NCBI RefSeq assembly: GCF_020784725.1
Contig: NZ_JAJGTZ010000030.1
Coordinates: 62,001 to 126,000, forward strand
DNA from: Limosilactobacillus reuteri
GTDB taxonomy: Bacteria; Bacillota; Bacilli; Lactobacillales; Lactobacillaceae
DNA length: 64,000 bases
Reading direction: 5' to 3'
The notes beneath the pieces were generated by a model. That model saw only the letters and a list, made by a program, of their open reading frames with translations, made no database searches and had not been told where the DNA came from. This document shows, in pieces, positions 26,592-41,932 of the stretch (the first letter of the stretch is position 1; each line of letters opens with the position of its first letter). Position numbers and translations under genes: made by a program.

Positions 26592-27410
26592 CTAATAATA
26601 AAAGCGAGTATCAAATTTAATCGTGAAGTTACTAGCTCCATCAATATGAATCTGATTCTCGCCTGTATAAAAGTCTAAGTAATTATGATCCCCAGCCATG
26701 TAAAGCTGCTCATCATTAATTGTGGGAATGAGTCCTGTAATCACCACGTTATCTTTTACAGACACGCTCTTGGTAATTTTAAGTGCTTGCCCACTCGTTT
26801 TATTAGTAATGGTAAAGCCGTTTGGTGCATCCCCATTAAATTCAATTGTTACCGGGTGCTCATCTGCAGTTAATGGAATAACTCCCGCATTATAAAAAAC
26901 AAAGTCGCTCTGATTAGTGAAGGTATATTGCCACTTATGGCTAAACAACTTCATTCCTAATCCAATACCTTTACCACTCGCTAAGTCGTACTCCTGGGTA
27001 GTAAATGAGCTTTCCGCATAACCAGTCGGACAATCAAGGTTAATCTGCACGTTGGACGCTCGCCAAAAAGAATTGTCACGGCTAACTGAGGCCGTTTCAG
27101 CGTAGACTTTCCAACGAATATCCTTAGCGGCGACATCATAAACATAAAAAGGCTCATGACTTTGCAAGAGTCGATTGAGCTTCATTCTTTGCAGAAATAA
27201 GTCGTTAGGATCCGTAGCAAGTACATTAAGTGTTAAGGGGAGGACTAGCTGTTGAGCTTGAACATCTGTAAGAGTGGCTCCATAGTTTCCAATTTGTTGA
27301 TAGGTATAGTTATATGCGGTTGTTGGTGGGTCGAACTTTTTTACACGAAAGCCCATCTTATCAAGATCATATATTGTCCCATCCTGTTTTTGAAAAATAA
27401 TGGTACTCAC
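26592..27410 (-). CDS. Distal tail protein (Dit)
   Basis: A 272-residue protein in the Dit position between tape measure and Tal. The N-terminal half (GFRVKKFDPPTTAYNY, GATLTDVQAQQLVLPL, NRLLQSHEPFYVY) is typical of the SPP1 gp19.1/siphovirus tail family that forms the hub ring; the C-terminal half is a galectin-like beta region. Its ATG shares a base with the tape-measure stop. Confidence 0.85.
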   Translation of the reverse strand: MSTIIFQKQDGTIYDLDKMGFRVKKFDPPTTAYNYTYQQIGNYGATLTDVQAQQLVLPLTLNVLATDPNDLFLQRMKLNRLLQSHEPFYVYDVAAKDIRWKVYAETASVSRDNSFWRASNVQINLDCPTGYAESSFTTQEYDLASGKGIGLGMKLFSHKWQYTFTNQSDFVFYNAGVIPLTADEHPVTIEFNGDAPNGFTITNKTSGQALKITKSVSVKDNVVITGLIPTINDEQLYMAGDHNYLDFYTGENQIHIDGASNFTIKFDTRFYY

Positions 27411-30400
27411 TAATAGACACCTCCTAATGGTTGGCCGTTACCAACCGGCACAGCACCGCCAACGCCATTAATAATAACTTCGTGGCTACGCATTGCTTTC
27501 AATGTTGGGTAAACGGCCCGGCTGACTTGTTTACTGTCAATATTCATCGTGATGTTAATATTTCCATCAACACGTGGCTGAGCCTGTTGAGTATTTGAAG
27601 CAGCTTGAACATGATTATTGCCTGTACTAATAAATGGCAACATATTATTGGCTGACTGCTTAGCTTCGTTGATAATCTTACTCAAATTGCCGGCAAAGCC
27701 ATTGGGATTAACTTTGGCCCGTGCTTCAATAGCTTCGGCAATATGATCTTCGGACGTATCACGAGCTGGATTAATGGCAACTTCTGGTTCGCCTGGTACT
27801 TCGCCAAAAATTGAGAGCTTATCAGCCCATCCCCCATTAGCATAGCGTCTACCACCACGAGGACTCCAACCACCAAGCGTTAAGTCTGAACGCCATGTTG
27901 AGTCATTAAACATGGCTAATAATTGATCGTATGGTTTCATAATATTGGTATGTCCTGGCATCGCATAATTATCAAATGTTGATTGAACAAATTGCAATAT
28001 ACCTTTAGAGGGATGTCCTGCCTTAGCATTGCTATCCCAATGATTTACTGCATCTGATCGTCCGCCAGACTCATGTTGAATAACATTCAAGATATGAGCA
28101 ATATCTCCAGCACTTATATCGACCTTCATTTTATGCGCTGCACGTCTTATTAAGGACGGACTTACAGGCCCATTACCACCTATTTCATCAAGTTTTTCTT
28201 CTTGCTTTTTTAATAAACTAGTGAACCAGTGTTCTCCCCAATGAGGAATCTTATTTTTTGCACCATCATCCGCAATATCATGCCACATAACTTTAGCTGT
28301 ATTTGTTCCTTTAGTATAAATTTTAATTAAAGTACCTAAAGGATCTTTAAGAGCATCTTCAATGGCATCTATTTTGTCGTCAATCATATCTTCAAGATTA
28401 TTTATTTTAGAGCTTGCATAATTCCATGCTTTTCCAAACCAATCACCAAAACCACCTTCGTATCTAGGAAGTCCAAACATTTTAGCGGTTTGTTTAGCCG
28501 GCATAACAGCATCCCCTGGTTGTAAATAAGTTAAAACATTGCGACCTTCGGGGATTTCAACTTTACCAGTATTTCTGAAAATTGCTTCACGATAAATGCT
28601 ACTATCTTCGTCATTAACAAGAGCTAATGAGCTTTCACCTTGTCGTCCTCCAGTTCCGTTTGCAAGTTTCTTCATATGCGGAACACTTACTTTGGCCCCA
28701 AAAAAGCCCGCTACTTTTTCTAATCCATCAGCACCAGTATTCCAAAATCCACCAATAGCATTAATGCCATCAGCCACGACACTCTTTATAGTATTCCAAA
28801 TTCCTTTTACCTTATCTGCGATAGCATCCCATATATTATCCCAGATCTTTTTAATACTGTTCATAGCATCACTAATACTATCTTTCATGTCGTCAAACTT
28901 ATTAACAACAAATTTCCAAATACCACCTAATACTTGGCTAATAACCCTTTCAATATTGTTCCACACTTTACTAGTATGATTTGAAACAGTATTCCAGGCC
29001 CAAGTTATTATCTTAGTTATTTCTCGAAAAATTTTATTGATAGGCTTAAAAACTGCATTAATCGCCTTAATAATTATTTTTGATATACCGTTCCATACTT
29101 TTGACGTTACTTTACTAATGTTATTCCACGAACTTTGAACAGTCTTTACAATCACTTTGAGGACACGCTCAATTGGCTTTTTAATCGTATTAAAAGCTTT
29201 TGTAATTACTTTTGTAATCTCTTTCCATGCTTTTGAAGTAGTTTTACTTATACTCTTCCAAGTTCGTTGCAATGACTTGGAAATAGTATTAACTACTTTA
29301 ATTACCGGTTTTTCCAGTTTTTGCCATACTTTAACTATGGCAGCTGTAAGTAAGACAAAGGGTGCTAAAACTGCAATTTCTAGTCCCTTTGCCAATGTTA
29401 CTAAAATCTTTTTTAATCCGTTAAAAACCTTAATAACAGGTTTAGTAATACCATCCCAAATTTTACCAATATCACTAACAATTTTAGAAAATTCTTTTTT
29501 TACTGGTGAAGCGATTCCTTTTACTGCTTTGGCAATTGTAGTTTTGATCGATATAAAAGATTTTTCAATTTGTGGCTTAATCTTACTAAGATTTTTGCCA
29601 ACTTCACCTCCGCCTTTAGCGCCAAACGTACCACCAACAGCTGAACCAATTAAGCTTCCTACCCCTGCTCCAACTGCAGTACCTGCACCTGGAATAAAGG
29701 AACCAAGAGCACCTCCAATCCATGCTCCTGTCATACCACCTGCAGCGGTACCACCAGTAGCACCAATAGCACGGCCAATTTTCTCATTACGATTTTGTCT
29801 ATTGATACCAACTAGCTCTGTACCACCAGCAATTAACGATCCTACAATTGGAATACGACTAGCTGTTCGACGAATAATACCCCGTTCTGCTGTCCTTATA
29901 GCAACTTTTCCAGCACTATTTTCCATTACCGATGCCGGACCTGTAATAGCCTGTTTAGCGGTTGATATACCAAACAAATGGTCAATTCCACGGCCAAATA
30001 TTCTACCAGCTTTAGTGGCCTTTGTTGATTGTACTCCGCCACTTGCAACTTCTTCGGCATTAGTTGCTAAAGACTCACCTCTTGCTCCTGCTCCAATTCC
30101 TTTAAAAACACCAGAAAGTCCTTTAATTCCAACAATATCTTTCAAAATTCCGTAGAAAGACGTTAGAGCATCTATCGAATCATATATCTTTTTAGTTGCA
30201 AACATTGCCATAAAAATTACTGTGAAAGCTTTTATGGCATCTTTGTGATTCAAAATCGCTTTAAGAATACTGTCAAAATCTTCTAAGGCTCCATGAGCAT
30301 CTTTGGATTTGTCATTAGCAAGACCAAACATTGAAGCAATAGTGTGGATAATATCAGCAAAAACCTGCCAAACAGTAGAGCCGATAATACCGATAATTTT

Positions 30401-31879
30401 TCCTAAATTACCTATTACATCAACAATCGTATCTTTATGATTACCGATATAATCAAGTACGGCCATAACGCCTTTAAGAATGGTACCCAGAGCATCACTA
30501 AGTAAACTAGCATATTTATCCAGCATTTTATCTGACAGAATATTTCTCAAATCTTCTGAGAGCTTTTTACTGCCTTTAAATGACTGCATAGTCACTTTTC
30601 CCCATAACATCTGCCAGCGTGATTGAATGTACATTTGCATACCAGTAAAAGAAGTCATTGCTTCTTGCGTACCGCTTTTGTACTTAGTCCCTAACCAATC
30701 TAGTGCTTCGGTAAAATCTTTTGCAGTTAATTTACCTTTAGCAGATAACTCATACAGTTGTTTCATCGACTTACCGGTTGCCTTCTGCAATGCTTCCCCA
30801 AACATCGGGAAACGGTTAATCATAACAGACATGTCTTCTGCATTGGCTTTACCACCGGCCACAATCTTTGAGAATTGCTCCCCTGCTTCTGCTAATTGAT
30901 CATTAGACATATGCAAAGTAGAACCCAAACGAATAAAATCAGTAGTCCAATCTTTAGTCTCCTTAACGCTTGAATGAACGTGGTAGAAGGATTGAGCCAT
31001 TCGGTCAACAGTGCTTGCAGCATAAATTGAATGCTGAGCCATATTGTTGATAAAGTCGACCAGCGTTGTACCATCTTTAGGAGCCTCAGTGGTTAACGCC
31101 GTCCAAACCGTCTTCATTCGGTCTTGCTCAACGTTATATTCCATTCCTGCTTTTGCAGCACTGATTAATCCGTTTTTTATTGCATTAATCCCATTAATTG
31201 CCAATCCACCGGCAAACGTACCAGCCATAATCTCTTTTAAGTGGCTAAAACTATGGCTCGTTTGATTAGCTTGTTGTTGAACTTTTTTTAGCGGTAATGA
31301 CGCTTTGTCGTTAAGCTTAACCTCTGTTATCAACCTAGCAGGCATCTTGTGTAGTAGTTCCTCATAGTTGATAACTTCGCCTTTTTGAGCCTTAGCAATC
31401 AGCTCTGTTAACTGCTTCTTAGGAATTTTCTTTAATAATTGATCAAAATTTGCAATCCCTTGCTCTTTGGCTTGTGCAATTAACTCTGTCCTAACTTTTT
31501 TGGGAATCTTAGTGACTTTTTTCTGCAAGCCATCAATCTGTTGGCTAGCTGAATCAGTATCAGCAGTTGGCTCTATTTTAGGCTTTTCATCCCCCAACTT
31601 CTTGCTCTTTTTGTCTAACTCATCAAGAGCTTTTTCAGCTGGAATCTTTTCGACATCAACATGAATAACGCCTTTTTCATCAGTCCACCTTTTAATATTA
31701 GTAACCATTTCTTTGGCTTTTTCAGTGGATTTATTGATATTGCTTTCGATACTTTTTTCAGCTTTATTACCTGCATCCTTACCCGTATCTTTAAGGGTTT
31801 GGTCAAGTTCTTTTGAGGCTTGTTGTGCCTGATCTTTATGCAAGATGACATCAATATTAACTGTACTATCTGCTGCCAC
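27410..31879 (-). CDS. Tape measure protein with lytic transglycosylase domain
   Basis: 1,489 residues, the longest gene of the prophage; its length sets the tail length. An N-terminal charged region is followed by the TMP core (AGTFAGGLAINGI, QFSKIVAGGKANAEDMSVMINRFPMFGEAL). Hydrophobic segments lie near residues 495-570 and a Gly/Ala-rich zipper near 730-780. Residues 800-1080 hold tandem KIWDGI/KVWNGI-type repeats about 35 residues apart with aromatic spacing. An SLT-type domain follows (VIQHESGGRSDAVN, SKGILQFVQSTF) that could cut glycan strands at entry. Confidence 0.92.
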   Translation of the reverse strand: MAADSTVNIDVILHKDQAQQASKELDQTLKDTGKDAGNKAEKSIESNINKSTEKAKEMVTNIKRWTDEKGVIHVDVEKIPAEKALDELDKKSKKLGDEKPKIEPTADTDSASQQIDGLQKKVTKIPKKVRTELIAQAKEQGIANFDQLLKKIPKKQLTELIAKAQKGEVINYEELLHKMPARLITEVKLNDKASLPLKKVQQQANQTSHSFSHLKEIMAGTFAGGLAINGINAIKNGLISAAKAGMEYNVEQDRMKTVWTALTTEAPKDGTTLVDFINNMAQHSIYAASTVDRMAQSFYHVHSSVKETKDWTTDFIRLGSTLHMSNDQLAEAGEQFSKIVAGGKANAEDMSVMINRFPMFGEALQKATGKSMKQLYELSAKGKLTAKDFTEALDWLGTKYKSGTQEAMTSFTGMQMYIQSRWQMLWGKVTMQSFKGSKKLSEDLRNILSDKMLDKYASLLSDALGTILKGVMAVLDYIGNHKDTIVDVIGNLGKIIGIIGSTVWQVFADIIHTIASMFGLANDKSKDAHGALEDFDSILKAILNHKDAIKAFTVIFMAMFATKKIYDSIDALTSFYGILKDIVGIKGLSGVFKGIGAGARGESLATNAEEVASGGVQSTKATKAGRIFGRGIDHLFGISTAKQAITGPASVMENSAGKVAIRTAERGIIRRTASRIPIVGSLIAGGTELVGINRQNRNEKIGRAIGATGGTAAGGMTGAWIGGALGSFIPGAGTAVGAGVGSLIGSAVGGTFGAKGGGEVGKNLSKIKPQIEKSFISIKTTIAKAVKGIASPVKKEFSKIVSDIGKIWDGITKPVIKVFNGLKKILVTLAKGLEIAVLAPFVLLTAAIVKVWQKLEKPVIKVVNTISKSLQRTWKSISKTTSKAWKEITKVITKAFNTIKKPIERVLKVIVKTVQSSWNNISKVTSKVWNGISKIIIKAINAVFKPINKIFREITKIITWAWNTVSNHTSKVWNNIERVISQVLGGIWKFVVNKFDDMKDSISDAMNSIKKIWDNIWDAIADKVKGIWNTIKSVVADGINAIGGFWNTGADGLEKVAGFFGAKVSVPHMKKLANGTGGRQGESSLALVNDEDSSIYREAIFRNTGKVEIPEGRNVLTYLQPGDAVMPAKQTAKMFGLPRYEGGFGDWFGKAWNYASSKINNLEDMIDDKIDAIEDALKDPLGTLIKIYTKGTNTAKVMWHDIADDGAKNKIPHWGEHWFTSLLKKQEEKLDEIGGNGPVSPSLIRRAAHKMKVDISAGDIAHILNVIQHESGGRSDAVNHWDSNAKAGHPSKGILQFVQSTFDNYAMPGHTNIMKPYDQLLAMFNDSTWRSDLTLGGWSPRGGRRYANGGWADKLSIFGEVPGEPEVAINPARDTSEDHIAEAIEARAKVNPNGFAGNLSKIINEAKQSANNMLPFISTGNNHVQAASNTQQAQPRVDGNINITMNIDSKQVSRAVYPTLKAMRSHEVIINGVGGAVPVGNGQPLGGVY

Positions 31880-31897: not shown

Positions 31898-32503
31898 TTA
31901 AGACGTAGCCCAACTTCTCAACGTTTGCGCTAAATTAGCAAATTGAGCTTCTTTAGCTTTCTGAGTTTTATTAATATCAAGTTCGTAATATTGCTTTGCT
32001 TCGGTTAATTTTGCTAAAGCTTCTCCTTGATAATCTTTAGGATCGCGTGTCCGAATATCAATTATTCTTTGCAAATAAGTATTTGGCCCTAATCCTTGAA
32101 AAAGTGCTTTAAATTTATCCCAATGTAATTGTCCTTGAACGTCAATTAGATCTATTCCGTATTGCTCATAGAAGCTTGAATAAATAGCCTCTGCATCCTG
32201 TTGAAATGAATATAAGCGTCGAGGATCTCGAATAACTTCTTTAGCATCTTCAACATCATTTCCGTAAGGCTTCATAGATATATACTTACCAATTTGTTTG
32301 AAAGCATTAATTGTAAAATCGGCATCATTTGGTTCGCAGCCCAAGAACATTTCAAATGCAGTCATTACCTTATCTGCATCTGATAATCTTTCATCATCCA
32401 GCATTTCATAAAAGCTTAATACAACATCAAAAGATAAATTCACTTTATAGCTTTTAGACCTATAAACTAATTCATCCCCTAATGGTTTAGTTAATGAAAG
32501 CAT
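31898..32503 (-). CDS. Gp15-like tail assembly protein
   Basis: A 201-residue protein matching the phage Gp15 family (SLTKPLGDELVYRSKSYKVNLSFDVVLSFYEMLDDERL). It is the second of two genes between the major tail protein and the tape measure, the position of tail assembly chaperones. The gene follows the upstream chaperone gene by two bases. Confidence 0.8.
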   Translation of the reverse strand: MLSLTKPLGDELVYRSKSYKVNLSFDVVLSFYEMLDDERLSDADKVMTAFEMFLGCEPNDADFTINAFKQIGKYISMKPYGNDVEDAKEVIRDPRRLYSFQQDAEAIYSSFYEQYGIDLIDVQGQLHWDKFKALFQGLGPNTYLQRIIDIRTRDPKDYQGEALAKLTEAKQYYELDINKTQKAKEAQFANLAQTLRSWATS

Positions 32504-32505
32504 GA

Positions 32506-32958
32506 TTATTTACGCTTCTTTTTAGCATAGTAATTTTTAATGGCTTTCTTTTTATTTTTTAAATTAGTTTTTTGATCGCTATTAAGTTGATCATTTAACT
32601 TCACTAATTCATTTGCTACAGCCCCAAGAACATAGGTAGATTTACCATAGAAGTCATAAAGTCTTTTTCCTTCGCCTTTGCCCAAAATACTATCTAATGA
32701 ATCAAAGAGATTATTCAAAGCTTTATTAAACGCTTCATGCATAAACTTCTTTCGTTGATCCACATTCATGTTTTCCTCAAAGTCTTTTCTTTGTTTATTA
32801 AGTTCGTCTAACAAGCTGACCTCAGCAATTTGCAAATCAGCAGTTTTTTTATACATTTCATCATTAAAGGTTAAATTATAGGTTTTCTTACCAATAGTTA
32901 CATTACGTGTAAGGCTAAAATTAAATTTTTCATCCAAGTTTACGTTGATTGCAGTCAT
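32506..32958 (-). CDS. Putative tail assembly chaperone
   Basis: A 150-residue protein beginning with a beta segment (FNFSLTRNVTIGKKTYNLTFND), then helical and ending in a very basic NKKKAIKNYYAKKKRK tail. Its position just before the Gp15-like gene and tape measure supports a chaperone role. I looked for a frameshift into the next gene, as found in many phages, and saw no convincing slippery site at the lysine-rich end. Confidence 0.65.
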   Translation of the reverse strand: MTAINVNLDEKFNFSLTRNVTIGKKTYNLTFNDEMYKKTADLQIAEVSLLDELNKQRKDFEENMNVDQRKKFMHEAFNKALNNLFDSLDSILGKGEGKRLYDFYGKSTYVLGAVANELVKLNDQLNSDQKTNLKNKKKAIKNYYAKKKRK

Positions 32959-33010: not shown

Positions 33011-33553
33011 TTACTTAGTTGCCGGTACAAACTTAGGTTTACCATTAAATACTGCTACAAAACTAAATGTTTGCTTAGCTCCTGGTTGCCCACCAGCAGG
33101 AACAATATTAGTTAAGGTCACAACTCCGTAAACCTGCGAGCCATCTGCAAACGTTACCCGCATTAAAGTCTTTAAGTTATCACCAATTTCTAACATTTTA
33201 GAGGCAATGTAATCTTGTGCCTTATCGCCATATACACGGTGGCCGGCTACAGTAAATTGATAACGTTTAGATGTTACATCTGATGTACCAAAACCTTCGC
33301 CATCATAATATTCATCATTAGCAGTAGTATCATTCTCAGCAGGCGTTAAGTTATTAATTCCCGCAGCTAAACGTGCCCAATTTGCTTTAGTAATATCATC
33401 AGCATTTTGCAACCCATCAATCGCAATTTCAATTTTGTTTTGCCAGTTAAGTAAAAATTTGCCAATAGTAGTCGGTGCTGTTTCTTCTCCTGATACGGAA
33501 CTTGGTCCTTGTGCTTGTGGTAATACGCCACCATTTGTGACTTCATCAGCCAT
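33011..33553 (-). CDS. Major tail tube protein
   Basis: A 180-residue protein in the tail-tube position. Features typical of the family: TIGKFLLNWQNKIEIAIDGLQNADDITKA and a C-terminal beta region (YGVVTLTNIVPAGGQPGAKQTFSFVAVFNGKP). A well-spaced ribosome-binding site precedes it. Confidence 0.8.
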   Translation of the reverse strand: MADEVTNGGVLPQAQGPSSVSGEETAPTTIGKFLLNWQNKIEIAIDGLQNADDITKANWARLAAGINNLTPAENDTTANDEYYDGEGFGTSDVTSKRYQFTVAGHRVYGDKAQDYIASKMLEIGDNLKTLMRVTFADGSQVYGVVTLTNIVPAGGQPGAKQTFSFVAVFNGKPKFVPATK

Positions 33554-34372: not shown

Positions 34373-34719
34373 TAAAGCACCTCCAACTCATAGGAGTACA
34401 CCTTGTTACTATAAGGCTCTCGGTTATCCACAATATTTGTAATTGTGTAGTCCCGGTTTTCAAAAGTAAGGTGGTTTCCTATCCAATCTGGTGTAATCTG
34501 TGGCAACGGATCCGAAATTTGCGCAAATAAAAAGACAATCGCATTTGCTGTGATTGTCCGGCTATTATTTGAACCCGAATAAATTGTTTGCGGTTGTACC
34601 AGTACGTTATTGACTGGCATATCAACCGTTTTTTGTTTGCCGTAATCGTCCTCTTCACCGCTTGCAATATGCAAAACAATAGATTGATTACATAGACGTT
34701 TAGGAATGCGTGGAAGCAT
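34372..34719 (-). CDS. Minor capsid protein (Minor_capsid_1-like)
   Basis: About 115 residues; start at ATG 34717-34719 (MLPRIPKRL) with GAGGG ten bases upstream, or two codons earlier. TDWIGN-type LTFENRDYTITNIVDNREPYSNKVYSYELEVL matches head-tail joining proteins. It overlaps the end of the upstream connector gene by 20 bases. Confidence 0.75.
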   Translation of the reverse strand: MLPRIPKRLCNQSIVLHIASGEEDDYGKQKTVDMPVNNVLVQPQTIYSGSNNSRTITANAIVFLFAQISDPLPQITPDWIGNHLTFENRDYTITNIVDNREPYSNKVYSYELEVL

Positions 34720-35125
34720 AATCATCACTCCCTCGGCCACGATATAGCAATCCATAGTGTGCCAATAAGCGGTAAGCCTCTTTGCAAACACCGTGAATCA
34801 TTCCATCACTAACAACATGATTACTTGGCTGTAATGATAGCCGGCCAATAGAAATGCTAGTAAAATCATCCCCGTTAGCATATGAAGCAGTAATTCCTGT
34901 CTGATTAATAAAATCAATCTGCTCACAGATAGCCGTTTTATAAGCATCAACTCGCTTTAAGTTTGGATCATCCTCAATTGAATGATCCTGATAGAAGTAG
35001 TCAATTATCCCATCCACTGCTCGTTGCGCTTGGTGTTCGATCTTCTCAAATCCCTCAGCATTAGTAATATCACTAAAACCTAGATCGGTGTAATCAGCAA
35101 ACGTTAAATGTGCTTCATACTTCAT
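34700..35125 (-). CDS. Head-tail connector protein (gp6-like)
   Basis: A 141-residue mainly helical protein; FEKIEHQAQRAVDGIIDYFY and YKTAICEQIDFINQTG are typical of DNA-packaging/connector proteins after the major capsid gene. Its ATG overlaps the stop of the -1 frame extension of the capsid gene as TAATG, which is evidence that this extension is translated. Confidence 0.75.
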   Translation of the reverse strand: MKYEAHLTFADYTDLGFSDITNAEGFEKIEHQAQRAVDGIIDYFYQDHSIEDDPNLKRVDAYKTAICEQIDFINQTGITASYANGDDFTSISIGRLSLQPSNHVVSDGMIHGVCKEAYRLLAHYGLLYRGRGSDDYASTHS

Positions 35126-36200
35126 TAATTACCACCACCATTTACTAGCGCTAAAAGGTCCGGTTTAGTCATTGTGGTTTGATACTTAATTCCATGAGCG
35201 TCAAGGTAAGCCTTAATCTGATCTACCGTTTGTGTCTCTGTTGGTTTCACATCCCCAGTGGGGTTAAATTCCCCGCTTTGATTAGTTTGCGGGGCTAAGC
35301 TTTTGGGTCTGGCTTAGGATCATTACTTGCTGTTGAAGAGGATGGACTAGCAGCAACATAGATAGACTTCTTGGCATTATCGAATACTAAAATATCGTAG
35401 TATGACAAGCCCTTAATGGTTGTCCGATAGCCTGAACGGTCAGTTGAAGCGTCTAAAACGTCCACTGTATCGTATTTAACAATTGGTGCCAGTGCATAGA
35501 GTGGTACTGCCATAAAGTTGACAGTATCAGTAATTGTTAAGCCAGAAATCCGACTCTTGGCACAAGTAAGAATTGGCACACCACCATCTAATTGACCAAC
35601 ACGGCGATCAATACCATTGATTTGCTGAGTGTTAGTAGAGAAGTTCTTAGTAACGCCCTTTGCGTTCTTCAATGCACGATAGTAAGCGGAGGAAGCGAAA
35701 ATAACATATCCACCCGGAATCTCATTATCGATCATATATTGTTCAAGATCATCGTAAGCGTCAAGCGCATTATCACTGGTAATTGTGTCGGTAACGAGTT
35801 TGCCGCCGTTTTTAGCAGTGTCATAAATCTTTTGCGCTGCAAACTTATCACGATGAGGAACAGTAATTAAGCGTTGGTGTTCACGTACAACGTTTGCAAC
35901 TTGGTAAGCACCGTTTTCAGACATATCAAGTTGGTCAAGGTCATAACCAATCCAATCTTCTTGGCTTAGTTCAAATGACTCTTTATCAACACTAACGTTA
36001 TGACGTTCATTGTCACCATTTCGCTTATATTCTTCTGCTTCGGCAAAGCCTGAAAGCTTGTTTACCCGTACAGTATGTACACCAGTAAAATCAGCAGCAG
36101 TAATTGACTTAGCGCCACCGGTTAAAGGTTGCCAGATTTGGGAATCGGCAGCAAATTCTTCATCAATAGCAGTTAAATCCTTTTGATCTAAAGCAATCAT
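35125..36200 (-). CDS. Major capsid protein, predicted -1 frameshift product with HeH/LEM-like tail
   Basis: If ribosomes slip at CCCAAAA (35301-35307) just before the capsid stop, translation continues in the -1 frame for 58 residues beginning [10 protein letters not shown] and ending LALVNGGGN at TAA 35125-35127. The extension has a Pro/Thr linker and then [17 protein letters not shown]...TKPDLLALV, a HeH/LEM-like helix-extended-helix pattern. The open -1 frame has no convincing start codon of its own. A minor extended capsid form made by -1 frameshifting is known for lactobacillus phage A2. Confidence 0.65.
35271..35307 (-). promoter_or_regulatory. Programmed -1 frameshift signal
   Basis: Minus-strand C CCA AAA heptamer in the correct X-XXY-YYZ phase (35301-35307), then GCTTAG (stop in frame 0), then a perfect CCCCGC/GCGGGG stem with a 12-base loop (35271-35294). 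A second small hairpin (CCCC-ACT-GGGG, 35253-35263) follows. Spacer length of six bases is within the range for stimulatory stems. Confidence 0.7.
35295..36200 (-). CDS. Major capsid protein
   Basis: A 301-residue coat protein in frame 0. Features: [34 protein letters not shown], a [16 protein letters not shown] segment and [12 protein letters not shown], all typical of HK97-fold capsids of Gram-positive siphoviruses. It follows the scaffold gene by 17 bases. The low-complexity end ([15 protein letters not shown]) carries the frameshift site. Confidence 0.85.
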
Positions 36201-36217: not shown

Positions 36218-36787
36218 TTATTCATTAGCTTCTTGCATTCGCTGAGCGATTCGGTCAACAAGCCCATCTCCAGAATTATTATTGTCGCTATTGCTAAACT
36301 TATTACTCAATGTAACGTTTGGCTTAGGCTGATCAGCTTCAAATAAGAAGCTGTTATCCTTCTTTACTGCGTCTAATTGTTCTGATAATCCATTCAATGA
36401 ACCGTCATCGTTTACACTCACTTTTTCCGTGTCGATCAATGGAAGCACGGTCTTAATGTTCTTAGCCTTTGCATCACGTAATGCACCTTCAATTTTGAAG
36501 CTCTTATTTTGCTTTGCTAATTGATCTTGATAGTTCTGCTTAGCCGTTTTATTTTCATCTTGTAACTGCTTAATTTGGCCTTGAAGTTCTTCATTATCCT
36601 TAGCCGACTTTTTCAATGTGGTTAATTGCTCATCACGATCATCAATTTGCTTTTGCAAGCCATCTCGTTCACTAGTTAAACCACTGATTTTATCGTTTAA
36701 GGCATTAACATCTTTACCATTTTGGGCCATTACAAAATTGATTTGCTCTTCACTAAGGCCATGTTCCTTTAATTCTTCACGCTTCAT
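36218..36787 (-). CDS. Capsid scaffolding protein (GP20-like)
   Basis: A 189-residue protein with a long central coiled coil (residues 30-105: ISGLTSERDGLQKQIDDRDE and repeats), followed by KNIKTVLPLIDTEKV and a C-terminal Asn-rich and helical end that probably binds the capsid. This is the plan of Phage_GP20 scaffold proteins, and it sits just before the capsid gene. Confidence 0.85.
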   Translation of the reverse strand: MKREELKEHGLSEEQINFVMAQNGKDVNALNDKISGLTSERDGLQKQIDDRDEQLTTLKKSAKDNEELQGQIKQLQDENKTAKQNYQDQLAKQNKSFKIEGALRDAKAKNIKTVLPLIDTEKVSVNDDGSLNGLSEQLDAVKKDNSFLFEADQPKPNVTLSNKFSNSDNNNSGDGLVDRIAQRMQEANE

Positions 36788-36869: not shown

Positions 36870-37088
36870 TTACTTAGGTCGTTCAAGTTCAATACTTTCA
36901 ATCTTTTTTAGTAATTCGGGGATGATTTTTATATCATCAATCCGGTTTAACGGTGGTAATGAAAGGTCTAAGTGCAATTTAACCATGCTACCAGCTGAAG
37001 AATCGATATTAATATTTTGAACATGAGGACTTACTAGGTCCGCTACAGGTTCGCCATCAAAAGTTTCAATATGTTCTTCCATCAACAT
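36870..37088 (-). CDS. Small phage head-region protein
   Basis: A 72-residue acidic protein with start ATG 37086-37088 after AAGGACG. It has no known domain: VADLVSPHVQNINIDSSAGSM is followed by a charged helix. It lies between the minor capsid/head morphogenesis gene and the scaffold gene. Confidence 0.6.
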   Translation of the reverse strand: MLMEEHIETFDGEPVADLVSPHVQNINIDSSAGSMVKLHLDLSLPPLNRIDDIKIIPELLKKIESIELERPK

Positions 37089-38239
37089 CACGTCCTTATC
37101 TGTTCTCTATCATAATCACGCACAAGTATTTCTTTCCCTTTATCTTCGTTAGTTGATTTAATAAACTGCCGTAATTTTGCCTGTCGTGCCCGTATGAGCG
37201 TTTTAGCATGATTTACTTGTTCTTCATCATCTAATTGCTTAGCGGCCTCTAATCGCCGTTTGGCATCCCTGATTGAGCGTTCTTTTGCTCGCTGTTGCTG
37301 AACAAGTTTTCCGTTAGCAATTGCTTCTTTCGGATCATACTGTGGCTGATGGTTCGTGTTAACTCCTGGACGATACGGAAATAAGATATGACTGCAGTTA
37401 ATTCCTTGAGTTCCTCCAGGTGTCCCATAACCGTGATTGTAAATGCTATCGTACTTATTGTTATAATTTGGACTTCCGGGCGGCACAATATTAACAACGT
37501 GGCCTTGAATCCAAGCACACGCCGGCCGACTATTAGGGTGACTACTCATTAAGGCTAAATGCAAATCATAATCTTTCATCCGTTGTAATCGCAAGGCATT
37601 ATATGTTCGATTGACAGTAGTATTAACTACCAGCTTCGTATAACCATCAATCGACCAGTTATGGCCACCCTTATCGACAAGTCTGGTAGGCAAGCCACGA
37701 TCAACAATGTGGTAAATAGCCTGCTTAACTGCCTTGTCATGTGTCATAGTGCCTGACAATGTATTTAACGTAGATTCGGTTAATATTTTCCTATACGCTC
37801 GTGTAACGGCTGATGTGCCATAATTACGAGTAACCAAGGATTCATTGACATTATTACTTAAATCAGTCCAAGTTTGGTCAATTAAAGCGTTCAAAACATT
37901 CATTGTTTCTTTTGAGACTGGTTTATCCTCATCTGTAAAATCTTTCAATTGATCATCAATTTCATCAATAATTTTCAAGCCATGAAACTTAATTAGATCA
38001 GTGATTGCCTGTTTGCTAATTCCATCAGCATGAGCAACTAGACTTACAGCTTTACGATTAAGCATCCCCAACTTTTGTAGTTGCTTAACTTGCCATGTTA
38101 CTACATCATCTTTGTTAACATGCTTATAATCACCGCTTTTTATTATGTCGATAATCACAGTAAAGATTTGACTTTGTAATTGTGAGTACAAGTCAATCAG
38201 TTTTTGACCATCTTGTGCAAAGTTATCACGTGCAGTCAT
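37088..38239 (-). CDS. Phage minor capsid / head morphogenesis protein
   Basis: A 383-residue protein of the Phage_min_cap2 type, usually present in few copies near the portal. The signature region is HPNSRPACAWIQGHVV followed by YGTPGGTQGINCSHILFPYRPG, with Cys and His residues shared by MuF-like proteins. The N-terminal half is helical. Confidence 0.85.
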   Translation of the reverse strand: MTARDNFAQDGQKLIDLYSQLQSQIFTVIIDIIKSGDYKHVNKDDVVTWQVKQLQKLGMLNRKAVSLVAHADGISKQAITDLIKFHGLKIIDEIDDQLKDFTDEDKPVSKETMNVLNALIDQTWTDLSNNVNESLVTRNYGTSAVTRAYRKILTESTLNTLSGTMTHDKAVKQAIYHIVDRGLPTRLVDKGGHNWSIDGYTKLVVNTTVNRTYNALRLQRMKDYDLHLALMSSHPNSRPACAWIQGHVVNIVPPGSPNYNNKYDSIYNHGYGTPGGTQGINCSHILFPYRPGVNTNHQPQYDPKEAIANGKLVQQQRAKERSIRDAKRRLEAAKQLDDEEQVNHAKTLIRARQAKLRQFIKSTNEDKGKEILVRDYDREQIRT

Positions 38240-38241
38240 AA

Positions 38242-39792
38242 CTATTCAGCTCCCGTATCTTCACCATCAGGACCATACGTTTCTTCTTGGGCGTTTGAAC
38301 TATACTCTGGTTGCTCCTCCAAAGACTCTTGTACCCACTGTGAGGCCTCATCTTCACTAAGTCCAAAGTTGCGAATAAGGTACTGTTTCTTAGGCATGAT
38401 TCCAGCACTAACAAGAGCTAATTCATCAGCTTTCTGTTTATCCTTATCAATAAATACCCCATCATCAAAGTGAACAGACAATTTAAGCTCATTGTCAGCG
38501 TCAAACTGGCAACGAGCTTTATTATCACTAAAAAATTCAGGTGTACTTGCTACTTCAAGAATTGCAGTAACTAATTGATTAAGAAATAACTCTACTTGGG
38601 TTAGATAACTTGATCTGGTTTGATAAGTAGTTGAGTTCTCACTAACTACTTCTGTCGCCGTTTTCACACTTTGGCCATCAAAAGAAAATGTGCCGGCACT
38701 GAATCCTGTCTGTTCTTCAAATTCACGTAAGAAGTAATCAATGGCCTCTTTATACGATGCTGTCCTAATATCACTAGTTAAATCAGTAATAGTCATAGAC
38801 TCATCCCCATAGAAAGCTTCGTAAACATCCATATCAGGATCGAATCTAAGGGGATGTGATTCATCTGCTGTATTATGGCCATAAACTGTCCCAGGGCGTA
38901 ACAGTTCTGCCGGCACAGCAATCCGGCGCTTACCCATTCTTATTTCGTGAACAAACTCGTCATGCGTCCGATTAATTGCATCAATAACATTTTTTGAATT
39001 ATCAACAATTCCCATCCCCAACGGACTATCAAGGTCTCTATTATTTGCTCCTGGAGTTCGGAAATAGGCAAATAGCGGCTTTTTAATAACATCATGAAAT
39101 GTGATAGTTTCCTGCATCCCCGGATAAATGCGATTAAGGGATACTTGATTACCTACGACTTCACTATCTGTGGATCGGTATAATTCGTTAGTAATGATAT
39201 ATGTTTCTGACCCGTTCCATTGATGAAACTCTAACAAAGTGTAATAAACAGTTTGTTTATTCTCCACTCGAGTAGAGCGACTAGCGAACACACATTCACT
39301 AATGTTATCTGTATTAGTGCGTAATGGGTAGAACTGAGTAGCGTTAGCCCAGGCAATACGGATATTATCTTGATCATCAACATATGGTCGAGCTGCTAAA
39401 CCACCTAACGCAATTCCAGTCTCAAGATGCTGCTCAAATTGTAAATTAAAATGGTTAGCATCTATAATCCCTGCTAAAAGTTTATTCAATTGAGGATCAT
39501 CTAATGACAATTCACATTGCTCATTAAAGATAATGGATGCTAAACGCTTTGAAGCCAATTTTGTAACATTTAGCGTATTCATTTTACGGTGACGCTTTAC
39601 CCCATAGCTGTTTCGATAATGCACTAATGGTAAATCATCCCGATAATACTTTTTAGCAAGCTGAATACGGTTATACTCTGTCTGTTTGATTGCTACTCGG
39701 TCATCATCCGTGATCTGGTTTAAACTTTTAATCATCCCCAGCTTAACGCCTCCTTTCGTCAAGAAATTACGTATTGTCGATAAGAAACTCAC
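38242..39792 (-). CDS. Portal protein (SPP1 gp6-like)
   Basis: A 516-residue portal forming the dodecameric ring for DNA entry. Recognisable segments are the N-terminal YRDDLPLVHYRNSYGVKRHR-like region, LASKRLASIIFNEQCEL, and a central ANNRDLDSPLGMGIVDN and KTATEVVSENSTTYQTRSSY. The C terminus is acidic. It is directly followed by the head morphogenesis gene. Confidence 0.9.
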   Translation of the reverse strand: MSFLSTIRNFLTKGGVKLGMIKSLNQITDDDRVAIKQTEYNRIQLAKKYYRDDLPLVHYRNSYGVKRHRKMNTLNVTKLASKRLASIIFNEQCELSLDDPQLNKLLAGIIDANHFNLQFEQHLETGIALGGLAARPYVDDQDNIRIAWANATQFYPLRTNTDNISECVFASRSTRVENKQTVYYTLLEFHQWNGSETYIITNELYRSTDSEVVGNQVSLNRIYPGMQETITFHDVIKKPLFAYFRTPGANNRDLDSPLGMGIVDNSKNVIDAINRTHDEFVHEIRMGKRRIAVPAELLRPGTVYGHNTADESHPLRFDPDMDVYEAFYGDESMTITDLTSDIRTASYKEAIDYFLREFEEQTGFSAGTFSFDGQSVKTATEVVSENSTTYQTRSSYLTQVELFLNQLVTAILEVASTPEFFSDNKARCQFDADNELKLSVHFDDGVFIDKDKQKADELALVSAGIMPKKQYLIRNFGLSEDEASQWVQESLEEQPEYSSNAQEETYGPDGEDTGAE

Positions 39793-39804: not shown

Positions 39805-41112
39805 TTACCACTTTAAGCCTAGCGCCCGTTCATTATCACGGACAAAATACTGAAACATATCGCATGTATGATCATCCTCTTTAATAACTTTTACGTCATC
39901 ACTTTGCAACGTTTTCTCGTCCCATTGATATTTGCGATGTTCAGCAATAAAAATATCATTCTCGTTACGTTTCAGGTAATAAAAGCGACCTTGTGCTAAT
40001 AAATCCTGCACCCGGTCAATCATATTTACCTTTTTCAGCTTATTTACTTTGTGCCAATGGGTCCCAAAGTCGTTATAGAACTGATTATCAAGAGCACCTT
40101 CTGCAGAGTCAATAGTCATACGTGTAGGCTGTTTTCCAATCCAATCGGTAACTTTATCAATAAAGGCTTTTAAGTCCCGTGACAGCTCACTAGGCGGCTT
40201 CTTATGCGTTTTCCCTTGCGGACTATAGTAATACGTATCTAAAAGGATGACATCACCCTTTTTAGTCAATCCATAAGCACCACAAGTAGTTGCTGAAACC
40301 TCATGACCTGTATCGACTGAATAATACAAGTTCGTTATGTAATCATCTTCTGGGAGCTTATCAATCGCTTGGAAGTTATCCATGTTATAAACATTGGTTC
40401 CTAGTCCCACAACTTCGCCTAAGTACATCCAACGGTAATAATCAAAGTCATTGCTTTTTACCGTGTTAATTTCGTCAATATAATCTTGTGACAAGATGTT
40501 GGGAAGCGTAACGTCCTCATAAGTTGAATGATCAACGTACCAGTTCGACATCCCCTCTCGTTGTGTAACCCACTCATTAATCCATTCGTAGGGGTTTTTA
40601 GGCGGATTGTAACTGTAATACGTTACAACATGAGCGCCTGGTGGTAGTTGCTTACGGGTAAATGATGCACGGACAGTATCAACTTCTTGCCAGGAGTCAA
40701 ATTCTGCTAATTCTTCAAACCATAAATAGCGAACATAACCCTTAGCGATCATCATTGACTTTAATTTCTGCGGATCATCAACCCCGCTAAAATAAAAAGC
40801 CGTTCCGTTACGTTTATCAACGATTCGATATGGAGATTTTTTGAATTCAAAAAGGCTATCCACATGCAGCATATAAATAGCCCATTTAATTTGCTCATAA
40901 ACGGATAGCTCAATAGTATTAGCAACCTTACGCATAATTAATACATTAGCATATTCATCTTTTAAGAAGTCCATTACTAGCTGCAGACTAATTACAGATG
41001 ATTTAGTAGAACCACGACCGCCTTTAAAAACTTTATTAAGGGATGAGGAATACAAAATATTAGCAAAGTGAGGACATATCATTGTGTTAGGATCAACTAC
41101 TATCGTTTGCAT
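39805..41112 (-). CDS. terL: Terminase large subunit
   Basis: DNA-packaging motor ATPase and nuclease. From ATG 41110-41112 (AAAGGTGAAGAG upstream) it is 435 residues. The ATPase domain has Walker A-like GGRGSTKSS near residue 32 and Walker B-like [10 protein letters not shown] near 128; the nuclease domain has [15 protein letters not shown] with an Asp ligand near 250 and [13 protein letters not shown] near 340. It overlaps terS by 20 bases. Confidence 0.93.
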
Positions 41113-41932
41113 TCTCTTCACCTTTCTTCAATGGCAAAAACTTAATCATTAAGCCATCATTTGCATTCTCACTTACATTCAGCCTATCAAGCAATACCTG
41201 CATAGCTTTCTGTTTATCATACATTTCAATAACAGGCTCGCCTTTGTCAATCCGGATACTTTTGATGTTCGATGTATCAATCATGCTGCTATCTTTTAGT
41301 TCTATGACGTTTTCATAATAGAAGGCTTGTTTACCTGTTTCCGGGTCAATTTTAGGTACATAACGAAAACGCCCACCAGCGTCTTCATATGGTCCCTTTT
41401 TGTCCCGGATTTTGGAAAATTCTAAATGTTTTACAGTTCTAAATGACAATACATCAGCAATATCACTAGTTGCTTGTTGCAAATAGCCTTTTAATATGTC
41501 GTTAGCAGTTACATACAAGTCTTTTGATTGTTGCTTTTTGAGTGCAGAAAGATATTTCTTAATGCAAGCATTAGCAAGCAAACGAGGTCCATTAGTATGA
41601 GCTGTGGTGTAATTGCCACCATAGGCTTGCTGATAAGCCCAGGTGGCGTTGTACCGTTGCAAATAGTACAAGCAGAAAGCTTTCTGCCGGTCATTTAATT
41701 CATCACTATCAGGTAAATCAGGAACCGGTAAAGAGGGTGCAACTTTTTCTTTTGTGTGCACACTTTTCTGTTTAGGGTGCACCCTTTTAGTGGCTTTGGG
41801 TGCTCCTCTTGACCAACCATTGCGCTTTTTCCACGATTTAACAGTATTAATTGATACTTCATACTTAGCAGCTATATCTTTATATTTCATTCCGGCTAAG
41901 TAGTCTTTCTCAGCCTTCTCTTGCTTTGTCAT
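41093..41932 (-). CDS. terS: Terminase small subunit
   Basis: A 279-residue DNA-recognition subunit. An N-terminal helix-turn-helix ([26 protein letters not shown]) precedes a basic linker and the terminase_2 domain ([38 protein letters not shown]). It is longer than typical because of the C-terminal region beginning [14 protein letters not shown]. It is the first gene of the late head operon. Confidence 0.9.

Follow-up and report, generated by a model that had tools for sequence, protein, structure and literature searches.

A candidate -1 frameshift cassette links a phage capsid gene of Limosilactobacillus reuteri to a HeH-like tail

The major capsid gene of a prophage head module in Limosilactobacillus reuteri ends in a slippery heptamer and a stop codon followed by a hairpin, and the -1 frame that opens there encodes a HeH-like domain. 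This cassette is conserved among close relatives, and selection acts on the -1 frame. Taken together, the evidence is best explained by a -1 slip of the ribosome that yields a minor 358-residue capsid form with a HeH-like tag, probably on the outside of the head, a reading to which we assign a probability of roughly 0.8.

The capsid gene and its 3' end

The window, as the whole analysed stretch of 64,000 nucleotides is called here, is part of a 2.0-Mb genome in 43 contigs, and its capsid gene sits within an ordinary phage head module. The features of this module and of the capsid gene end are as follows.

39805-41121: terminase
38242-39792: portal
37088-38239: minor head protein
36218-36787: scaffold
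35295..36200, minus strand: major capsid protein gene, 301 aa (phrog_422 major head protein, E 3e-70; stop TAG at 35297-35295)
35301..35307, minus strand: slippery heptamer CCCAAAA in the phase C CCA AAA (X XXY YYZ), identified from the sequence; same junction as in phage A2
35271..35294, minus strand: 6-bp hairpin directly after the capsid stop, perfect, with a 12-nt loop (CCCCGC at 35294-35289, GCGGGG at 35276-35271)
35128..35301, minus strand: -1 frame extension of 58 codons, from AGC (35301) to the stop TAA at 35127-35125; under purifying selection
35140..35229, minus strand: HeH/LEM-like domain of the extension (Pfam HeH, 27.1 bits, E 3e-6, tail residues 24-53; predicted helices)
34700..35125, minus strand: head-tail adaptor, the next gene after the extension (phrog_541, E 8e-27; its ATG overlaps the TAA of the extension)
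33011-33553: major tail protein
27410-31879: tape measure

Residues 2-286 of the capsid protein align to positions 5-294 of the 297 in the phrog_422 profile (E 3e-70), and three relatives in named genomes, all of Limosilactobacillus species, share 87-90% capsid identity, which suggests a host of that genus. A search for solved sequence relatives of the capsid gave nothing credible (best E 0.048). The model of the capsid is poor, with a mean pLDDT of 56.2 that was too low for placing the C-terminus by structure, and its Foldseek matches to HK97-type phage capsids, seven of them with E <=0.001, are to be read with the caution that such a model calls for.

The gene ends GAC CCA AAA GCT TAG, with GCTTAG forming a 6-nt spacer between heptamer and stem. 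The original prediction had described an in-phase CCCAAAA one codon before the stop, a six-base spacer and a perfect CCCCGC/GCGGGG stem, all of which are confirmed in the sequence, as is an open -1 frame of 58 codons without a convincing start, whose TAA shares bases with the next gene's ATG in TAATG. The predicted shifted product has 358 aa. Only 16 nt of the -1 frame are open before the capsid stop is reached, and the shift would therefore have to fall within the short stretch that carries CCCAAAA. The sole in-frame start candidate between the slip site and the domain is a GTG located 47 nt past the first base of the stop codon, at which no Shine-Dalgarno match of 4 nt was found. Across 11 genes of the window module, 21 of the 4256 positions hold an in-frame XXXYYYZ word. 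As a single sequence the junction folds only modestly better than its shuffles (z -1.96, with 7 of 200 shuffles equally good), so that the case is carried by comparison across relatives. On sequence grounds, the junction appears to be a programmed -1 cassette of the A2 type, combining an in-phase heptamer, a near downstream structure and a conserved -1 frame that lacks an initiation site of its own.

Other candidates in the module were rejected. A second A2-like frameshift was considered in the major tail gene, where the -1 frame closes after 4 codons. A tail-chaperone gene pair is usual between the major tail protein and tape measure genes, and at this place (31898-32958) the window holds two genes (32506-32958 and 31898-32503), the second being read in frame -1 relative to the first. 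This frame stays closed right up to the stop codon, which leaves no ordinary -1 overlap, and a -1 fusion of this pair was likewise rejected.

Conservation and selection among close relatives

The ten close relatives compared support a protein-coding role for the -1 frame, in which mean pS is 0.634 and mean pN 0.209 (45 pairs, 10 sequences), with the reverse pattern in the other two readings of the same bases (pS/pN 0.22/0.305 and 0.197/0.284). Third positions of the -1 frame hold 1239 of the 2291 differences, and the other two readings are without such an excess. This substitution pattern indicates that the -1 frame is under purifying selection.

The heptamer codons CCA AAA, judged by eye, are unchanged in all ten relatives. 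At invariant capsid residues with degenerate codons, the codon itself is invariant in 23 of 199 cases overall, in one of seven for proline and in 8 of 13 for lysine; as invariance is rare for proline and common for lysine, only the proline codon is informative. Seven sequences keep the stem intact despite a varying loop, and L007 replaces one G-C pair of the stem by A-U, a single compensatory change that is weak evidence, being reached by 79 of 500 shuffles. In the alignment of related capsid genes, a check that had been proposed at the outset, heptamer, stem and -1 frame are conserved together.

The HeH-like domain

The window tail scores 27.1 bits against the Pfam HeH family (PF12949), under the gathering cut-off of 28.9, and is for this reason named HeH-like. 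Homology to a HeH domain above the cut-off is indicated by a profile of 26 tails (A3), which finds locus L238 at E 6e-18, and the HeH domain of L238 scores 37.1 bits. The AlphaFold2 model of the tail has a mean pLDDT of 82.5, with blocks above 90, and predicts a helix, an extended loop and a helix, the helices spanning residues 25-34 and 45-52. The proposal of a HeH/LEM-like tail is thus borne out, as far as a model can, by the near-cut-off Pfam score and the predicted helix-loop-helix. The only solved chain under E 0.01 for the tail profile is 2OUT (Mu-like FluMu gp35), and a Foldseek search with the tail model gave no match at E <=0.001.

The slot behind the window's capsid family

The survey of the window's capsid family (phrog_422) compared 45 distinct junctions. 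CCCAAAA precedes a HeH-like -1 tail at eight of these and an Ig-like -1 tail at five, GGGAAAC or GGGGAAA precedes a HeH-like -1 tail at four, and most of the other 28, among which L052 and L053 are fragments, run straight into the next gene. The Ig-like tail of L046 was identified by a Pfam match to Big_2 (7e-14) and the other Ig-like tails by eye, and no Big_2 match was found for the window tail in the Pfam scan. Judging from these junctions, the slot may be empty or be filled by either a HeH-like or an Ig-like tail, and the many relatives without a tail indicate that a tail is dispensable for this family.

Among individual phages, Enterococcus phage 4995_2 has CCCAAAA and, by eye, an Ig-like tail; a Listeria phage has GGGAAAC and a HeH-like tail together with an ATG that overlaps the capsid stop; and mv4, phiJB and LL-H have no heptamer and a different protein that begins at TAATG. 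In the latter three (L055, L056, L058) this small protein, M-A-K-x-K-V-x-H-D-F-W-G, starts in the -1 frame of the capsid stop, and in LL-H the -1 frame behind the capsid stop closes early. Short -1 tails of 17 and 20 residues lie behind GGGAAAA and TCAAAA-stop at the capsid ends of L039 and L044/L059, respectively.

Capsid and tail have different histories. The window and L005 are 83% identical in capsid DNA and 76% in the tail core, whereas the window and L062 are 76% identical in capsid DNA and 95% in the tail core. Since the capsid and tail identities disagree, tail exchange is seen directly, and on these sequence identities the HeH tail has been exchanged recently between the window and L062 lineages. 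Nucleotide identities to capsids of other families were disregarded, since free end gaps deprived them of meaning.

HeH-like tails across capsid families

Searching viral contigs with a profile of 12 tails gave 50 loci. At family level 141 of 397 genomes had a match to profile A3, and at order level 59 of 395, with not all of the matches being phage; as 24 of the 26 rows of A3 are -1 tails, the profile may favour finding such tails. The resulting 153 HeH ORFs comprise 112 distinct ones, defined as differing in the last 150 nt, which are related by descent and not independent. Frame counts exclude 28 HeH ORFs without a recognised capsid as well as loci L267-L274. From the 61 rows initially placed in the -1 frame, L228 (a separate ORF) and L233 (HeH in its own gene) were removed, and from the 12 placed in the +1 frame L211 (own gene). 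At L233, the capsid gene has CCCAAAA and a -1 tail of 21 residues, followed by a distinct gene that starts at an ATG of its own and encodes a protein with a HeH-like domain at its end.

Recognised capsid genes carry 81 distinct HeH-like tails, with 59 in the -1 frame, 11 in the +1 frame and 11 fused in frame. Representative tailed capsids fall in phrog_422, phrog_247, phrog_10 and phrog_544, and the CCCAAAA junction with a HeH-like tail is present on capsids of all four. This frame split over four capsid families marks the HeH-like domain as a mobile capsid tail that is mostly attached by recoding, and the 11 distinct in-frame fusions indicate that a capsid is able to carry it.

Canonical slip sites are present at 41 of the 59 -1 junctions (22 CCCAAAA, 11 GGGAAAA, 4 GGGAAAC, 3 GGGAAAT and 1 AAAAAAA), and the 18 without a canonical heptamer comprise 11 TCAAAA-stop, 5 G-run types and 2 AAAAAGC. 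At nine of the 11 +1 junctions, CCC precedes the stop or one of AGC, AGT and TCC; the other two, L244 and L251, may be broken fusions. A canonical heptamer occurs in the last 18 nt of 41 of the 59 tailed -1 junctions, which are drawn from four families, versus none of the 23 control relatives, which lack both HeH and Ig tails and all belong to the window's own capsid family. The median folding energy of the 40 nt that follow the stop is -12.1 kcal/mol at the 59 tailed junctions versus -4.1 in the 23 controls, and the higher G+C of the tailed junctions (0.59 versus 0.34) explains part of their stronger folding. With dinucleotide-keeping shuffles, the median z is -1.45 for 31 -1 HeH junctions, -1.09 for eight +1 junctions and -1.12 for five Ig-like junctions, versus +0.23 for 22 controls. 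Stems of at least 5 bp near the stop are found in all 31, six of the eight, three of the five and nine of the 22, respectively.

Published phage genomes carry the same arrangements. From 52 matching phage records, 22 regions chosen for variety were examined. The tail lies in frame in five (S193, AQ113, P7.1, KC5a and Lj771), in the -1 frame in eight (phiPYB5, R10.1, JNU_P5, LFP01, LF1, JCL1032, H1-Guo and phiEG37K) and in the +1 frame in eight (Javan393, phiMH1, Javan68, Javan414, Javan443, Pika, Javan549 and OlisA3). In Javan264 a separate gene located behind the capsid gene encodes the HeH protein and has an ATG of its own as well as AGGGGGG, which resembles a Shine-Dalgarno sequence. Counted by eye, 14 of the 22 regions, all of them among the 16 with a recoded tail, have a tail that the listed genes leave uncovered except for a few bases, and an unannotated minor capsid form is therefore predicted in many published phages.

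Proposed mechanism and alternatives

In the proposed mechanism, most ribosomes would stop at the capsid stop codon and release the 301-residue shell protein, and a minority, aided by the hairpin past the stop, would slip back one base at C CCA AAA and read 58 further codons, giving a 358-residue form composed of 300 capsid residues, a linker and the HeH-like domain. By analogy with published work on A2 and BH1 both forms would co-assemble, in which case a set fraction of subunits would bear the tail. The tail would most likely sit on the exterior of the head and act there as an adhesion tag or a decoration in low copy number, occupying the slot that an Ig-like domain fills in relatives, and we favour a displayed tag that may bind a protein or a surface. 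That the shift takes place is suggested by the cassette, its conservation, the selection on the -1 frame and the A2 parallel, and these lines of evidence, including the comparison across relatives, support the -1 frameshift reading of the original prediction. In the literature searched, no shifted product is reported for the window phage or for any HeH tail. Transcriptional slippage was set aside by reasoning, as the run has only four A.

It is very improbable that the HeH domain is instead a separate small protein, made from its own start (e.g., the GTG at +47) or by termination-reinitiation. A separate start with a ribosome-binding site in homologous phages had been raised as the finding that would count against the frameshift, and in part it is borne out, as Javan264 has a separate HeH gene, another lies next to the capsid gene in a Streptococcus agalactiae phage (PMC10221047), and the Listeria phage has the ATG overlapping its capsid stop. 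However, the window GTG has no Shine-Dalgarno match, a start codon with a match of at least 4 nt is absent from all 59 -1 tails, and 45 of the 59 have no start codon there at all, against 14 with one; a separate start would also leave the conserved heptamer and stem unexplained. We give almost no credence to the -1 ORF being a decaying, unexpressed remnant of a former in-frame fusion. In-frame fusions do exist, and L244 and L251 are without an obvious shift site, but the -1 frame is under purifying selection and the cassette is conserved.

Granted that the frameshift is real, the tail might face inward and bind packaged DNA, a role also considered in the original prediction. HeH, SAP and LEM-like folds include DNA binders, and among the weak, non-significant hits of the tail in Foldseek are the SAP domain of Ku70 and T4 endonuclease VII. 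Against this, the net charge of the tail core is zero or below in 80 of 82 HeH-like tails, with a mean of -1.8 in a set that still includes L233, and Ig-like domains can fill the same slot. The neutral-or-acidic core argues against DNA binding, which was set aside; a DNA-facing tail remains unsupported and quite unlikely, and an exterior tag is the likelier function. A part in assembly, for example as a guide for the scaffold, the adaptor or the portal vertex, would fit the coupling of the tail to the head-tail adaptor gene by TAATG in the window and the description of the longer A2 head form as essential in a review (PMC5009743). This role is nonetheless rather unlikely, as relatives of the window capsid manage without any tail and tails of quite different fold replace one another.

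Wider reading

Ig-like domains are known mobile ornaments of phage structural proteins, some of them added by frameshift. The HeH-like tail is a second domain, unrelated to the Ig-like one, that is used likewise on four capsid families via a -1 shift, a +1 shift or fusion. The role of low-copy capsid tails can thereby be tested by comparison of natural variants that have or lack each tail.

More tentatively, and with considerable doubt, CCCAAAAGC-stop-hairpin could be a portable docking cassette, in which Lactobacillales phages would swap HeH-like and Ig-like tails by recombination, the frameshift would keep the dose low, and the HeH-like tail would serve as a neutral-to-acidic adaptor for a common partner. 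This reading draws on the presence of CCCAAAA with HeH-like tails on four capsid families, with Ig-like tails in the window family and at both A2 junctions, as well as on the disagreement between capsid and tail histories (window versus L062 and L005); docking by recombination and the common partner are speculation. A common-partner adaptor, if true, would also fit the close HeH relatives fused to bL20 and bS16 in other Lactobacillaceae.

In these other Lactobacillaceae, some ribosomal proteins have an in-frame C-terminal fusion to a HeH domain close to those of the capsid tails, with bL20-like fusions at L238, L253 and L262 and bS16-like fusions with a C-terminal HeH at L252, L254, L255 and L256. 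Pfam identifies Ribosomal_L20 and HeH in L238 and Ribosomal_S16 and HeH in L252, and the other five were judged by motif. A non-capsid phage protein of 203-225 aa also ends HeH-like (L091, L093-L095, L097-L104, L108 and alike), amounting to 13 distinct ORFs or fewer, most of which have a CPGC motif.

Comparison with known systems

The closest parallel in sequence is Lactobacillus phage A2, and it holds as originally proposed. In the A2 record the head gene ends ACC CCA AAA GCG TAA and the tail gene GCC CCA AAA GCG TAG, each with the same CCCAAAA and an open -1 tail, and the head gene and the window capsid gene share the ending CCA AAA GCN TAR. The A2 head extension differs in having 85 codons and an Ig-like domain, whereas the window tail has 58 codons and is HeH-like, and, as a further difference from the window, the annotation of the A2 head gene includes a cleaved mature peptide. 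The review PMC5009743 states that A2 requires both -1 shifts, that the longer head product is essential and that its extension is Ig-like. For phage BH1, PMC6950654 names CCCAAAA at the head gene and places the Ig-like ORF 7 directly behind it, with two peptides of ORF 7 in the protein-identification table. By the published coordinates, ORF 7 lies in the -1 frame of the capsid gene; the authors annotate it as a separate gene, unlike the HeH-like -1 extension of the window. A2 and BH1 support expression of the window tail by analogy.

T3, T7 and the Listeria phage PSA differ from the window in hosts and tails, the T3 tail being Ig-like and that of T7 not known to be Ig-like or HeH. For the long form of gene 10 in T3/T7 and for the PSA capsid, the review describes a minor form made by frameshift, -1 in T3 and +1 at a proline codon in PSA (PMC5009743). 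The PSA shift resembles the +1 HeH cases reported here, with CCC in nine of 11.

A HeH-type domain like that of the window is found in S. agalactiae phage vB_Sags-UPM1 (PMC10221047) and in FluMu gp35 (2OUT), but there it is encoded by genes of its own and not as a capsid extension. Within the open-access literature, no report joining HeH with a capsid frameshift was found, which given that scope is weak evidence of absence. The mechanism and the cassette are already known from A2, and what is new is the HeH-like domain, the range of unrelated capsids that bear it, and the way in which shift types replace one another.
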